The translations under genes were made by a program, and so were the position numbers. A stretch of 32,736 nt of DNA from Desulfobacterales bacterium (GTDB lineage Bacteria > Desulfobacterota > DSM-4660 > Desulfatiglandales > Desulfatiglandaceae), in the NCBI GenBank assembly GCA_027027005.1, contig JALVMN010000250.1:1-32736 (forward strand), read 5' to 3'. Each line of letters opens with the position of its first letter. Position 1 is the first letter of the stretch. The notes under the pieces are model-generated. The model was not told the DNA's origin, did no database searches, and saw only the letters and a program-made list of their open reading frames with translations. Shown in pieces: positions 9,959 to 22,884 of the stretch.

Positions 9959-11208
9959 CCCTCAACTCCCACCACAAGGGATTGGACGCCCTTCAATCTG
10001 TCTTTCTCCACCTTGATGCGAAGCATTACTGCCGGGTGCATCTTGATCTTTTTCTTCCTCAATATCCCCTTGCCGTCTTGATCCCTTATTACAATGGCCT
10101 TGTTGTCCACCGGTCCGCTCACTCTGGCCGAGAGCACAAAGTCCAGTTGCCCGCTCACTTTGTGGGGCAAGACATACCTCACTCCTTTGCCAGGTCTCAT
10201 TTGAATATACGATTCAAATGGCCTCATCTCTCCCATGGCATAAAGGGCAGCATAAGAGCCGGCAATTTCGGCCTCTTCTGAGACATCGTCCACCACATCA
10301 TGGACCTGGAGCACATTGCCGCAGGAAAATATCCCCGGGACGGTTGTCATCAGGGTGTCATCCACCACTGCGCCACCGGTCACCTGGTGAATCTCCACAC
10401 CGGCCTGGCGGGAGAGTTCGTTTTCAGGGATGAGGCCCACTGAAAGGAGGAGGGTGTCACATGGAATGAATTCCTCGCTTCCGGGAATCGGTCTCCTTGC
10501 CTGGTCCACCTTAGCTACGGTGACTCCGCTGAGCCTTCTTCCTCCGTGAATCTCCACCACAGTGGTGCTGAGATGGAGGGGGATACCGTAGTCCTCCAGG
10601 CATTGCCGGATATTTCGAGGGAGCCCGCTTGCATATGGGAGTATTTCATAGACCCCTTTCACCCTGGCCCCTTCCAGGACAAGCCTCCGAGCCATTATGA
10701 GGCCGATATCGCCAGAGCCAAGTATCACCGCTTCATTTCCCACCATTATGTTCTGAAGATTTATGAGATTCTGGGCTACCCCTGCAGTGTAAACACCTGT
10801 GGGCCTTGTCCCCGGGAGCATGATGGCCCCGGCTGTCCGCTCCCTGCAACCCATGGCCAGGATCACTGAGCCTGCATCTATCTCCATGAGCCCTTGCCTT
10901 GAGCTTGCAACCAGTCTTTTCTCGGCACTTAGGGAAAGCACCATGGTATTGAGCATCACCTCAATGGCAAGGGCATTCAGTTCATCAATGAAACGCTGGG
11001 CATATTCGGGTCCACTCAAGGCCTCCTTGAACCGGTGAAGCCCGAATCCATCGTGAATACACTGGTTCAATATGCCTCCAAGGACCTGCCCCCTTTCCAG
11101 CAGAAGCACATCTCTTGCCCCCTGCTTCCTGGCAGAGATTGCCGCAGCAAGCCCTGCAGGCCCCCCGCCTATCACCACCACATCCCTTTTTATCTTCTTT
11201 ACACTCAT
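9955..11208 (-). CDS. FAD/NAD(P)-dependent oxidoreductase (middle subunit of LhgO/GlpA-like trio)
   Basis: The 417-residue flavoprotein starts with a dinucleotide fold VVVIGGGPAGLAAAI (10-24) and contains a second NAD-binding motif AVILGSGDIGLIMARRL in mid-protein. A third conserved stretch, GIFSCGNVLQVHDVVDDVSEEAEIAGSYAA, matches the 'GdG' FAD motif of class-II pyridine nucleotide-disulfide oxidoreductases. The redox-active CxxxxC pair of glutathione reductase is not apparent; CIHDGFGLHRF occupies part of that region. It is expected to pass electrons between the hydroxyacid-oxidising flavoprotein and NAD(P) or another carrier. Four-base ATGA overlaps join it to both neighbours, strongly implying one complex. 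Confidence 0.85.
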   Translation of the reverse strand: MSVKKIKRDVVVIGGGPAGLAAAISARKQGARDVLLLERGQVLGGILNQCIHDGFGLHRFKEALSGPEYAQRFIDELNALAIEVMLNTMVLSLSAEKRLVASSRQGLMEIDAGSVILAMGCRERTAGAIMLPGTRPTGVYTAGVAQNLINLQNIMVGNEAVILGSGDIGLIMARRLVLEGARVKGVYEILPYASGLPRNIRQCLEDYGIPLHLSTTVVEIHGGRRLSGVTVAKVDQARRPIPGSEEFIPCDTLLLSVGLIPENELSRQAGVEIHQVTGGAVVDDTLMTTVPGIFSCGNVLQVHDVVDDVSEEAEIAGSYAALYAMGEMRPFESYIQMRPGKGVRYVLPHKVSGQLDFVLSARVSGPVDNKAIVIRDQDGKGILRKKKIKMHPAVMLRIKVEKDRLKGVQSLVVGVEG

Positions 11209-12689
11209 TTAGGCTGCCTCATATACCCTGTAAAAAGGTATGATCCTTCCTTGTATGAAAAAAAGTCCTCTGGCCTGTATCCAAAATCTTGCTCCAGGAT
11301 CTGGACTATCTTCGGAAGGCAGAACCCACCCTGACACCTACCCATCATTACCCTGGCCCTGAATTTGAGCCCGGAGATACATTTGATCCCCAGGGGATTC
11401 TGGATCGCATCCAACACTTCCTTTTTGGTGATCTGCTCGCACCTGCATACCACCTCACCATAGTCAGGGTCCTGGCTAATGAGGTCTGCCTGCTCCTCTC
11501 GAGAGAGCTCGTGAAAAAACCCGGCCCCCCCTTCCCTTTGAGGCTGAAAATCCTCCCTTTCCTCCAGGGGGATGAGCTCTGAGACGAGGGAGCGCACCAT
11601 GGTGGCGATGGCAGGAGAGCAGGTAAGCCCCGGGCTCTCTATGCCCACTAGGTTGATAAATCCCGGTACATCCTTTCTGCTTTCAATGACAAAGTCCTTG
11701 AACCCTCCAATCTCTGGTGGATTCTGTTTGGCCCTGATCCCGGAGAAACTGCGGATTATGTCCGAGGTGGTCAGAGACGGCAACAAGGCCTCTCCTTCCT
11801 CCCTGAGCCTGCCCATGATGTAAGAGGTGGTGGCCCAGTCTTCAGGGGAATCTATGTATTCATTGCTGGGGCCCACCAGGATATTGCCATCCACTGTCTT
11901 CGTGAGGTGAATCCCAAGGCCTGCCTTTCCCTTGTGGGGGGCAGGATAGACCAGGGTGGAGAGGTGATGTCCCAGCCGCTTGTCCAGGACCAGGTATTCG
12001 CCCCTGCAAGGATAAATGCTATAGTCATTTATCCCCACCATCCTGGCGATCCTGTCAGAGAACACCCCTGCCGAATTTATGAGCACCTTGGAGGCGAACT
12101 TCTCGCCATCCTTGGTGGTCACCAGGAAGCCTGAGTCATTTTTTTCGATACCAGTGACCTGGCGTCCCAGGAAATACTCCACTCCGTTTTGATGGGCATT
12201 TTCGGCAAGTGCAATGGTCAAGCCGTAGGGGCAAACGATCCCGGTGGAAGGTGAGTAGAGGGCCAAGAGCCCGCTTACCCCTGGTTGGAGCCTCTGCATC
12301 TGCTCGGGCCTCAGGATCTCGAGCCCCGGCACCCCGTTTGCCTCACCTTGCTCCTTCAGCTTGTAAAGGGTGGGAATTTCATCTTCGTGGCTGGCAACGG
12401 TGAGCTTTCCAATGTAGTCAATCTTGACCTTGAGTTGGGCACAAAGCTCCTGCATCATGGAGTTTCCCTCCACGTCCAGCTTGGCCCGCAAGGTGCCAGG
12501 GGTATAGTGGATGCCCGAGTGGAGCACGCCGCTGTTGCGGGAACTGGTCCCCATGCCCACGTCCAGCTCCTTTTCCAGCACCGCCACGCTCAGCCGGTAT
12601 CTGGAAAGCTCCCGGGCAATGGCGTTTCCCACCACCCCGGCACCGATGATGAGGCAGTCATAAAGGGAGGGAACAACAGGCGCTACCAT
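11205..12689 (-). CDS. L-2-hydroxyglutarate/glycerol-3-phosphate dehydrogenase-like flavoprotein with BFD [2Fe-2S] domain
   Basis: The 494-residue protein has an N-terminal DAO-type FAD fold (CLIIGAGVVGNAIAREL, 12-28) and the segment SSRNSGVLHSGIHYTPGTLRA (49-69), a close match to the 'RNSGViHsGiyY.pg..Ka' motif of LhgO-type L-2-hydroxyglutarate dehydrogenases. GKLTVAS and SPSTGIVCPYGLTIALAENA also fit. The C-terminus is a BFD-like [2Fe-2S] domain with Cys415, Cys417, Cys452 and Cys457 (CRC ... CQGGFC). Simple LhgO lacks this domain; archaeal/anaerobic GlpA-like trios have it. The substrate is probably a 2-hydroxyacid or glycerol 3-phosphate. No glycerol kinase or facilitator is nearby; instead the upstream gene, 19 bases away, is 4-hydroxybutyryl-CoA dehydratase, so a hydroxyacid is more likely. 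Confidence 0.8.
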   Translation of the reverse strand: MVAPVVPSLYDCLIIGAGVVGNAIARELSRYRLSVAVLEKELDVGMGTSSRNSGVLHSGIHYTPGTLRAKLDVEGNSMMQELCAQLKVKIDYIGKLTVASHEDEIPTLYKLKEQGEANGVPGLEILRPEQMQRLQPGVSGLLALYSPSTGIVCPYGLTIALAENAHQNGVEYFLGRQVTGIEKNDSGFLVTTKDGEKFASKVLINSAGVFSDRIARMVGINDYSIYPCRGEYLVLDKRLGHHLSTLVYPAPHKGKAGLGIHLTKTVDGNILVGPSNEYIDSPEDWATTSYIMGRLREEGEALLPSLTTSDIIRSFSGIRAKQNPPEIGGFKDFVIESRKDVPGFINLVGIESPGLTCSPAIATMVRSLVSELIPLEEREDFQPQREGGAGFFHELSREEQADLISQDPDYGEVVCRCEQITKKEVLDAIQNPLGIKCISGLKFRARVMMGRCQGGFCLPKIVQILEQDFGYRPEDFFSYKEGSYLFTGYMRQPK

Positions 12690-20965: not shown

Positions 20966-22144
20966 CTACGACCATCTCCCCGATACGGGCCGGCCGCATG
21001 CCTTGCAGTGCCCTGCCTCCAAGGCGTGGAGCCTTACAAAGTAGCCCCTTCTCTCCACCAGGAGTTCCTGGCACTTGGGGCAGTAGGTGTGGGAGGCGGG
21101 ATGGCCGGGGACATTTCCAAGATATACGTGGTGGAGTCCTTCGCCCAAGGCCACTTCACGGAGCCTTTCCAAGGTCTTCACCGGAGTGGGGGGCAGGTGG
21201 GTGAGCTTGTAGTGGGGGAAAAATCTCAAGAGGTGCAAGGGGTGGTCAGGGCCCAGCTCCTTGACTATCCACCTACACATCTCCCTTATCATCTCAGGGT
21301 CATCCACATAGGTGGGTACAACCAGGGTGGTTATCTCAAGCCACACACCCTGGTGGTGCAAGGTCTTGAGGGTGTCCAGCACGGGCCGGAGCGTCCCTCC
21401 ATTGAGACACTGATAAATCCTGTCGTCAAAGGACTTTAGATTTATATTTGCTCCGTCAATATATTGGCACAGCTTCAAGAGCGGCTCTTGGTTTATGTAA
21501 CCATTGGAGACGAGAACATTTTTTAGGCTGGCCTTTCGGGCCTGCTTTGCAGTATCAAACATGTACTCGTAAAATGTAATGGCCTCTGAATAGGTGTATG
21601 CTATGGCCGCAACGCCTTGTCTCCGGGCCTCTTGGACCACCTGGGGGGGAAATAGCTCCACGCTCCTCACCTCTTCTGGTTTCCTCTGGGAGATCTGCCA
21701 GTTCTGGCAGTTGAGGCACCTGAAGTTACACCCCGTAGTGGCGATGGAAAATATGGAAGTGGTGGGATGGAAGTGAAACAGCGGCTTTTTTTCTATGGGA
21801 TCTACATGGACTGCACAAGGGTTTCCATAGGCAAGGGAATAGAGCCTGCCCTCAATGTTGACCTTGGAGCGGCAGAGACTCCGGTCCCCTGGCCTCAAAT
21901 AACAGCGATTTGGACATATCTGGCACTGGACATCCCGTCCGTTACTGGCGTAGTGGAAGCCCTCTATGGACCACTTCCAGGGTCTGTCAGGGGCATCGCC
22001 CCTGAATACCCGGCCCCTTATGTTCTTCCAGGGACGAGAGGTTTTGCCCCAAAAGGCTGAGGCAGGGTATGGGCAAAGGAGGGCTCCTGCCCCAAGGCCC
22101 ACGGCCTTCAAGAATTGTTTTCTTGTAATACCAGCCTTGCCCAT
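20966..22144 (-). CDS. amrS: AmmeMemoRadiSam-system radical SAM enzyme (AmrS-like) with Tat-like leader
   Basis: The 392-residue protein carries the radical SAM triad Cys139, Cys143, Cys146 (CNFRCLNC), a preceding CQICPNRC...C motif (74-91) typical of AmrS, and a C-terminal zinc-ribbon-like pair (YCPKC and CKACG). Residues 7-30 (TRKQFLKAVGLGAGALLCPYPASA) look like a Tat leader with an Arg-Lys instead of Arg-Arg pair. This is unusual because radical SAM chemistry normally needs cytoplasmic SAM and reductant. The ATG at 22144 has GGGGGA seven bases upstream; the ATG at 22150 is too close. The AMMECR1-domain gene lies immediately upstream. The third usual partner, Memo, is absent here. The reaction of the family is not established to my knowledge. 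Confidence 0.85.
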   Translation of the reverse strand: MGKAGITRKQFLKAVGLGAGALLCPYPASAFWGKTSRPWKNIRGRVFRGDAPDRPWKWSIEGFHYASNGRDVQCQICPNRCYLRPGDRSLCRSKVNIEGRLYSLAYGNPCAVHVDPIEKKPLFHFHPTTSIFSIATTGCNFRCLNCQNWQISQRKPEEVRSVELFPPQVVQEARRQGVAAIAYTYSEAITFYEYMFDTAKQARKASLKNVLVSNGYINQEPLLKLCQYIDGANINLKSFDDRIYQCLNGGTLRPVLDTLKTLHHQGVWLEITTLVVPTYVDDPEMIREMCRWIVKELGPDHPLHLLRFFPHYKLTHLPPTPVKTLERLREVALGEGLHHVYLGNVPGHPASHTYCPKCQELLVERRGYFVRLHALEAGHCKACGRPVSGRWS

Positions 22145-22170
22145 TAGCATTCCCCCAAGATGGAAGGTTA

Positions 22171-22884
22171 TTATTCTTCCTCAAAGGCCTGCACCTGATA
22201 AGTAAGCACTTCCAGATCACCCCTCTTCCAGGCATCACCATCAAGGCCGGCCTTGAGGCATAGGTGGGTAAGGAAGTCCTCCTTTCGGGGAAGTTGCTCC
22301 CAGACCTGCGGGAGGAAGGTGGCCTGTGCGTAGCCCTTCTTGATGATCACCCCGTCTATGCCTGGTTTCAACTTTTCCAGCAGATCCTTGGCATCCCTGT
22401 ATTCCAGAGGCTTGGGATCGGTTAGGATACTTACCTCTATCTTTATCCTGTCCCATTCCTCCGGGCCCACAGGCGCAAACCTCGGATCCCTGAAGGCCGC
22501 ATTGATGGCATTTTCCCTCACACCCTCAAGCACTGATTCCCGGGCGATGATGTGTCCTATGCAGCCTCGAAGGTTCCCATCCTTTGTGAGGGTCACAAAG
22601 GTCCCCCTTCTCTGGTGAAACTTGCTGGAGGGTGGGGGCTGAAGCTTCTTGACCTCTCTCCTCTTTCCAAAGAGTTCTTTCTCAATGGTCTCCCTGGCCA
22701 CCTGGAGCAAGTATGCTCCTTCTTCCTCTGTAAACTCTTGTTCGTGGTTCATGGTCTCCTCCTGGGCAGGGGGTTTTACGGCTTGGGCGGTTCGTGCCCC
22801 TGGACTCACAAAAACTGCCAAGACCATGGAAAAAAAGAAGGTGATCCCAATGGATACCACTTGATGGATGTTTGCAATCTTCAT
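22171..22884 (-). CDS. amrA: AMMECR1-domain protein (AmrA-like) with signal peptide
   Basis: About 237 residues. MKIANIHQ followed by a hydrophobic run (VVSIGITFFFSMVLAVFVSP) and ending TAQA near residue 35 forms a signal peptide or membrane anchor. The rest is a full AMMECR1 domain: RGTFVTLTKDGNLRGCIGHI, AFRDPRFAPVGPEEWDRIKIEVSIL, and GVIIKKGYAQATFLPQVWEQLP with GLDGDAW. The conserved LRGCIGH motif with its Cys is intact. In many prokaryotes it is encoded with Memo and the radical SAM partner. An in-frame GTG at 23010 lies inside the predicted promoter, so the ATG at 22884 is used. The gap to the radical SAM gene is 26 bases, implying an operon. Confidence 0.82.
   Translation of the reverse strand: MKIANIHQVVSIGITFFFSMVLAVFVSPGARTAQAVKPPAQEETMNHEQEFTEEEGAYLLQVARETIEKELFGKRREVKKLQPPPSSKFHQRRGTFVTLTKDGNLRGCIGHIIARESVLEGVRENAINAAFRDPRFAPVGPEEWDRIKIEVSILTDPKPLEYRDAKDLLEKLKPGIDGVIIKKGYAQATFLPQVWEQLPRKEDFLTHLCLKAGLDGDAWKRGDLEVLTYQVQAFEEE

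Follow-up and report, generated by a model that had tools for sequence, protein, structure and literature searches.

A putative exported AmmeMemoRadiSam system with conserved leaders, a membrane partner and a candidate second start in AMMECR1

The AmmeMemoRadiSam system, which consists of AMMECR1 (TIGR04335), Memo (TIGR04336) and a radical SAM enzyme (rSAM, TIGR04337), is widespread in bacteria and its function is unexplained; its human relatives MEMO1 and AMMECR1 are linked to disease and likewise lack a biochemical explanation. Clustering of the three genes is frequent but not universal. Because S-adenosylmethionine (SAM) and low-potential electron donors are located in the cytoplasm, radical SAM enzymes are regarded as cytoplasmic, and neither SAM nor such a donor is known outside it. 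In the open-access full-text literature searched, no report of an exported AmmeMemoRadiSam system or of a periplasmic or otherwise exported radical SAM enzyme was found.

Here we analyzed a stretch of 32,736 nucleotides (the window) from a Desulfobacterales bacterium in which neighbouring AMMECR1 and rSAM genes both carry N-terminal leaders. The original prediction that this pair is exported and has an extracytoplasmic role is supported, as far as sequences can tell, by the conservation of the leaders and by a Memo protein that bears a leader of its own. We consider it probable (about 0.7) that these genes belong to an exported, four-part AmmeMemoRadiSam system running parallel to a cytosolic one. 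While all three proteins pass the NCBIfam cut-offs for the described system, they differ from its ordinary members in bearing Tat or Sec leaders, in going together with a membrane protein, here called S, and in sharing their genome with a second rSAM and Memo that lack leaders.

The gene pair and its partners in the genome

Both genes are located on the minus strand, with AMMECR1 upstream and rSAM 20-26 bases downstream of it. The following features were assigned:

22171-22884, minus strand: AMMECR1 (AmmeMemoRadiSam protein A), long form with leader; TIGR04335 206.5 bits, cut-off 99
22780-22884, minus strand: Sec-type signal peptide or anchor of AMMECR1, MKIANIHQVVSIGITFFFSMVLAVFVSPGARTAQA; starts at ATG 22884 and ends in ARTAQA
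22758-22763, minus strand: internal Shine-Dalgarno sequence AGGAGG in AMMECR1, 5 nt before the internal ATG; duplex -10.3 kcal/mol
22750-22752, minus strand: internal ATG, start of the AMMECR1 domain; predicted cytosolic form 22171-22752
20966-22150, minus strand: AmmeMemoRadiSam radical SAM enzyme (rSAM); TIGR04337 348.3 bits, cut-off 220; 394 aa from ATG 22150
22055-22150, minus strand: Tat-like leader of rSAM, MLMGKAGITRKQFLKAVGLGAGALLCPYPASA; ends in CPYPASA at 22055
22106-22126, minus strand: TRKQFLK in the rSAM leader, a variant twin-arginine motif with RK replacing RR
21707-21730, minus strand: CxxxCxxC cluster motif of rSAM, CNFRCLNC (C141, C145, C148)

Both leaders named in the original prediction are present, a Sec-type signal peptide or anchor on AMMECR1 (22884 to 22780) and, on rSAM, a Tat-like leader with TRKQFLK, a hydrophobic stretch and a terminal ASA, in which the twin-arginine motif takes the RK form. 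The Pfam TAT_signal model, which matches 7 of 64 aligned rSAM relatives, gave no match to the window rSAM leader, and this miss by the curated profile counts against Tat export, as does the RK motif. The TIGR04337 match begins at residue 69, the NCBIfam models excluding the leader. An alternative rSAM start at ATG 22144 is better spaced than ATG 22150. TatC is encoded in the genome (266.7 bits).

The window rSAM possesses the CxxxCxxC motif and the radical SAM fold that define the superfamily, and in its AlphaFold2 model (64-row alignment, mean pLDDT 93.6) the leader forms a separate helix. The nearest solved fold is that of pyruvate formate-lyase activating enzyme (PDB 3c8f, 3cb8 and 8fo0; TMt 0.78-0.80), and by sequence, too, the glycyl-radical-enzyme activases are nearest (E 6e-10). 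Unlike these cytoplasmic enzymes of about 245 aa, however, the window rSAM carries extra four-Cys clusters at both ends as well as a leader, and it scores far below the activase cut-offs.

The genome is a metagenome bin of 2.79 Mb in 403 contigs (97% complete, 8.9% contaminated) and encodes one AMMECR1, two rSAMs above the TIGR04337 cut-off and three Memo (TIGR04336) genes. As had been noted for the immediate surroundings of the pair, no Memo gene lies within the window; Memo is found on another contig, so that the three genes of the system are not clustered here, as they are in many relatives. One of the three Memo genes (contig C362) starts with a signal peptide, VKKGFMVIIVLMIIWGGGWDSYSQG, which answers the question raised with the original prediction of whether a distant Memo would also have a signal, and the remaining two are without one. 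The second rSAM (contig C271) starts with MKEAYLYEKIKD and is leaderless; the genome thus holds the leader-bearing Memo alongside leaderless Memo and rSAM paralogues. The S gene is located on contig C278, away from the rSAM-AMMECR1 locus. The Memo gene on C362 is adjoined by a leader-bearing thioredoxin-like gene (L001, 1348-1896, plus strand), of TlpA/ResA type as judged by eye.

Leaders in the family and across phyla

The absence of leaders in close homologues had been named as a finding that would speak against export, and the opposite was observed, since leaders are conserved in the genus, in the family and across phyla. A genome of the same genus (G230, 4% contamination) contains the same adjacent leader-bearing pair, a leader-bearing Memo and, on contig C95, S. 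Among the 46 genomes of the window's family that were searched, 43 contain an rSAM, which bears a leader in 35 of the 43, nearly always with TRKEFLK or TRKQFLK (N-termini judged by eye); a leaderless rSAM with the N-terminus MKEAYLYEK is likewise found in 35 of the family genomes. Five close pairs (243 codons) showed 22, 16 and 72 differences at the first, second and third codon positions of the rSAM leader (p = 6e-12), and this third-position excess shows that the leader is translated and selected as a peptide.

The AMMECR1 gene is leader-bearing in 30 of 35 assessable family genomes with a single such gene (G225, where the gene ends at the contig end, was excluded from the counts). Memo is called leader-bearing in 26 of these 30 genomes by an automatic rule that missed a visible leader in G103 and whose call in G213 rests on a partly masked stretch; Memo genes of a 406-aa type and two partial Memo genes were left out of the family set. 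Many family genomes encode this third Memo type, which has about 110 additional residues forming an extra N-terminal domain (L002, 1453-2703, minus strand, and the 406-aa-type genes).

Two further sets of rSAM loci were compared. The first, a genome-contig scan, comprises 80 named loci, the best 80 of at least 565 matches, obtained with search patterns that favour the leader-bearing type; they belong to Desulfobacterota, Bacteroidota, Ignavibacteria, Omnitrophota, Verrucomicrobiota, Planctomycetota, Chloroflexota and others. The second, the phylum sample, is less biased and comprises 80 of the first 81 among the best matches listed (the thirteenth, G011, being cut at the contig start, was omitted), of which 75 are assessable. 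Since the automatic leader rule was revised twice after plain leaders had gone undetected, the p-values obtained with it are post hoc. The final rule called 97 of 153 rSAMs leader-bearing, compared to 133 of 3060 shuffled N-terminal extensions; the calls comprise 34 of the 75 assessable loci in the phylum sample and 63 of 77 in the genome-contig set. It misses visible Tat motifs in L056, L074, L182 and L223, all of which were set by hand for the tree.

In a tree of 154 rSAM cores, 36 leaderless rows, including the genome's second rSAM, form a separate clade (SH-aLRT 99), and the leader label changes 8 times on this tree, as opposed to 44 times when shuffled. The leader-bearing rSAMs are an old, multi-phylum group apart from this leaderless clade. 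All three cluster cysteines are kept in 101 of 101 leader-bearing and 53 of 53 leaderless rSAMs, and the putatively exported enzyme has therefore not degenerated; 48 shared invariant positions are likewise kept. Four contigs labelled Aenigmatarchaeota, Altiarchaeota or Woesearchaeota (L049, L051, L052, L086) encode leader-bearing rSAMs that are 47-56% identical to the window's, either by gene transfer or because they are misbinned bacterial contigs.

Memo genes located no more than 8 kb from an rSAM encode a signal-bearing product in 46 of the 48 loci that can be assessed, two more being cut at the edge. In 42 of these 50 loci Memo is fused to AMMECR1, and a lipobox-like site is present in 13 of the 46 signal-bearing proteins. 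Clustering of the neighbours revealed only two families that are both recurrent and specific for leader-bearing rSAMs, namely Memo-AMMECR1 and S; the others were generic regulators, radical SAM proteins and a 4Fe-4S membrane protein (5 loci), and no substrate gene near the rSAM loci emerged from it. The 4Fe-4S membrane protein is NapH-like and stands beside leader-bearing rSAMs of one group (L170, 9669-10556, minus strand; L198, 1825-2745, plus strand), for which alone it is a possible electron donor. In L056, a second, short radical SAM protein (10995-11861, plus strand) directly follows the gene of the exported Memo-AMMECR1 protein. The culturable Mangrovibacterium marinum DSM 28823 (L058) has an rSAM with a KR leader, flanked by Memo-AMMECR1 and S as neighbours.

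How strongly leaders and neighbours go together depended on the rule. The two earlier versions gave no clear association: with one of them, neighbour A was found at 7/26 leader-bearing and 7/48 leaderless loci (p = 0.22) and S at 6/26 and 7/48 (p = 0.36), and with the other, A at 9/26 and 5/49 (p = 0.014) and S at 8/26 and 5/49 (p = 0.05). With the final rule, the phylum sample gave 12/34 vs. 2/41 for A (p = 0.0009), 11/34 vs. 4/41 for B (p = 0.02) and 12/34 vs. 1/41 for S (p = 0.0003). In the genome-contig set, biased to the leader-bearing type, no difference was observed for A (31/63 vs. 7/14) or B (29/63 vs. 8/14), while S was found at 39/63 leader-bearing and 4/14 leaderless loci (p = 0.04).

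The membrane partner S and the side of the membrane

S is a protein of about 700 aa with a central Spermine_synth domain (PF01564). In most genera of the family its gene is flanked by those of AMMECR1 and rSAM, and in other groups it is found near leader-bearing rSAMs; in the window's genus it is gone from the locus but retained elsewhere in the genome (C278 here, C95 in G230). A profile built from 37 S proteins detected S in all 30 family genomes with a leader-bearing AMMECR1 and in none of the 5 with leaderless forms only (p = 3e-6), as well as in 34 of 35 genomes with a leader-bearing rSAM compared to 0 of 8 with leaderless rSAMs only (p = 6e-8), in one copy per positive genome except for G237, which gave two matches. 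In the phylum sample, S is found in 37 of 39 genomes with a leader-bearing rSAM and in 2 of 14 leaderless-only genomes or, counted by family, in 21/21 and 1/12, and the contrast holds within both families that contain both kinds; for these counts L182 and L223 were set and L159, L167, L188 and L193 added by hand. The exceptions are G041 and G192, with a leader-bearing rSAM and no S found, and G024 and G062, with S and only a leaderless rSAM.

The AlphaFold2 model of S (pLDDT 89.9) consists of seven helices, a SAM-fold domain resembling that of spermidine synthase, and seven further helices. The lysine and arginine content of the loops (10.7 vs. 3.9 and 9.0 vs. 3.2) places the domain outside when judged from either half, and we predict that it faces the outside. 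In matching PF01564, the domain is like those of spermidine synthase and the membrane-fused polyamine aminopropyltransferases (PF01564, NF002956, NF037959), whose catalytic motif is D-s-D-P. S differs from them in its 14 membrane helices, the predicted outside position of the domain and the consensus lP.P.T.qlNRfyT, with lP.P at the site of D-s-D-P. An ordinary spermidine synthase was rejected on account of this replacement and of scores far below the equivalog cut-offs, the best being 193.5 bits against the 472 demanded by NF002956.

The position of S bears on the alternative that the leaders are mere membrane anchors, which would hold the enzymes on the cytoplasmic face near S and a membrane substrate, where cytoplasmic SAM and ferredoxin would be used. 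The supply of SAM and reductant then poses no problem, and the RK instead of RR in the window, the plain hydrophobic N-termini of a few rSAMs and the complete lack of a leader on some rSAMs next to a leader-bearing Memo would all be in line with it. However, the 92 Tat-type calls comprise 64 with RR, 22 with KR and 6 with RK, and RR or KR in 86 of them, together with AxA-like ends, points to translocation. Basic residues precede the hydrophobic core of the leaders (N-in, C-out), the Memo partners have signal peptides and, in the 13 cases given above, lipobox-like sites, and the S domain is predicted to lie outside. We therefore regard anchoring as unlikely. Sec-like leaders without twin arginines were seen on rSAMs of the same family in L097, L100, L104, L105 and L114; such leaders are difficult to reconcile with a cluster inserted ahead of export, and these proteins would either cross the membrane unfolded, in which case their clusters would have to be assembled outside, or be membrane anchored.

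The main result against a simple model with all parts outside is the leader-bearing Memo beside a leaderless rSAM in L081, L084, L111, L151, L152 and L154. These loci would suit a split system, in which only Memo-AMMECR1 and S are outside and rSAM works inside, for example on a precursor that is moved later, so that its leader matters little. Such a division is improbable, given that the rSAM leader is kept in most lineages and is under protein-level selection in the window's family, and that the same genome has a leaderless rSAM for the cytosol.

The candidate internal start of AMMECR1 and the proposed system

The leader-bearing AMMECR1 gene contains a second candidate start, reading AGGAGG-AGACC-ATG (22763-22750), at the position of the start codon of leaderless AMMECR1 genes. 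Its Shine-Dalgarno pairing is stronger than that of the leader ATG (-10.3 vs. -5.6 kcal/mol). An internal ATG with a value of -5.8 kcal/mol or below was found in 32 of 32 leader-bearing AMMECR1 genes tested (31 distinct, L040 and L147 looking like one species), with a median of -9.3 kcal/mol, compared to medians of -2.1 for other in-frame ATGs (n = 15) and -3.1 kcal/mol for random codon positions. Synonymous resampling gave a mean of -5.8 against the observed -9.2 (Wilcoxon p = 5e-10). The conserved internal ATG with its strong Shine-Dalgarno sequence makes it probable that one gene yields both an exported and a cytosolic form from two starts. A leaderless rSAM co-occurs in 23 of the 30 family genomes with a leader-bearing AMMECR1, and 29 of the 30 have a single AMMECR1 gene; most simply, the internal start would supply the partner of the cytosolic system. 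In G223, the exported system has a fused Memo-AMMECR1, and a separate leaderless AMMECR1 is also encoded.

A report on Salmonella (PMC11005335) describes pairs of N-terminal proteoforms that arise from two in-frame starts and differ in the presence of a signal peptide, for example PagC. AMMECR1 resembles these in that a single gene has two starts, of which only one includes a signal peptide, but differs in that its second start is predicted from conservation alone.

That true starts might lie downstream of the hydrophobic segments had been named as a point against export. In the case of AMMECR1 this is likely to hold in part, the internal start and the leader form probably both being used. Were the internal ATG the sole real start, the leader would be untranslated and AMMECR1 cytosolic, as the weaker Shine-Dalgarno sequence at the leader ATG and the lack of third-position bias in the leader (59, 63 and 72 differences at codon positions 1, 2 and 3 in 6 close pairs) could suggest, although signal peptides may change fast. 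Against this, the 30 family genomes with the leader have an open, in-frame hydrophobic stretch which the 5 leaderless-only genomes lack. Over 45 codons in 31 genes, the leader frame contains 1 stop, compared to 77 in one and 46 in the other of the two remaining frames, an openness inflated by the preselection of these genes as leader-bearing. In 29 of the 31 genes, no other frame is as hydrophobic. Moreover, the leader tracks the leader-bearing rSAM and Memo and S, and in fused Memo-AMMECR1 proteins one signal serves both domains. A purely cytosolic AMMECR1 is improbable. For the leader-bearing Memo, a dual start is no more than suggested: an internal ATG with a Shine-Dalgarno value of -6 or below occurs in 12 of 35 genes; a separate leaderless Memo is present in 4 of these 12 genomes and in 19 of the 23 others with a leader-bearing Memo (p = 0.007, hand-made table). 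An internal ATG with a strong Shine-Dalgarno sequence at the domain start was noted in the leader-bearing Memo genes of G201, G202, G214, G217, G218, G219, G220, G229, G234, G235 and G236; G214, G218 and G220 have both an internal-start leader-bearing Memo and a separate leaderless one.

An artefact of start choice, misassembly or bin contamination, to which the 8.9% contamination and the alternative starts might point, is rejected as very improbable, since the leaders are conserved in homologues from many genomes, the rSAM leader shows codon bias, and the gene set of G230 (adjacent leader-bearing pair, leader-bearing Memo and S) speaks against a contaminant contig.

The preferred reading is that of an exported system beside a cytosolic one, and the leaders with their conservation, the association with S, the topology of S and the internal AMMECR1 start are the features that support it. 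From these we infer that rSAM would fold and take up its [4Fe-4S] cluster in the cytoplasm before Tat export, while the long AMMECR1 and one Memo would be exported by Sec; in other lineages, Memo and AMMECR1 would travel as one fusion protein, sometimes as a lipoprotein. S would be the fourth part and the best candidate for supplying SAM, or for handling a group derived from it, outside, and the complex would introduce a radical modification into a candidate extracytoplasmic or membrane-facing substrate. Against this reading it counts that neither SAM nor a low-potential donor is known outside the cytoplasm and that the role of S as SAM supplier is a guess. The leaderless rSAM and Memo would form the ordinary cytosolic system, the single AMMECR1 gene serving both through its two translation starts.

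More tentative, and on balance doubtful, is a fuller version in which the radical SAM reaction proceeds extracytoplasmically, S carries or loads SAM outward and feeds the exported rSAM, Memo-AMMECR1 are the catalytic partners and AMMECR1 works in two compartments. Burroughs and co-workers are said to have linked Memo gene contexts, in 2019, to the modification of nucleotide bases and isoprenoids; for a system at the envelope, an isoprenoid or some other lipid would be a fitting substrate.

S is a candidate fourth gene of the AmmeMemoRadiSam system that can be put to the test. If the system has an envelope-facing version, its possible substrates are limited accordingly. With a conserved leader-bearing family that has an intact cluster site and predicts S, the use of SAM outside the cytoplasm becomes a directly testable question. 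If the S-fed version were true, Memo-AMMECR1 would act on an envelope substrate, SAM, or a compound derived from it, would be carried through the membrane by S, and a widespread extracytoplasmic SAM economy would exist.
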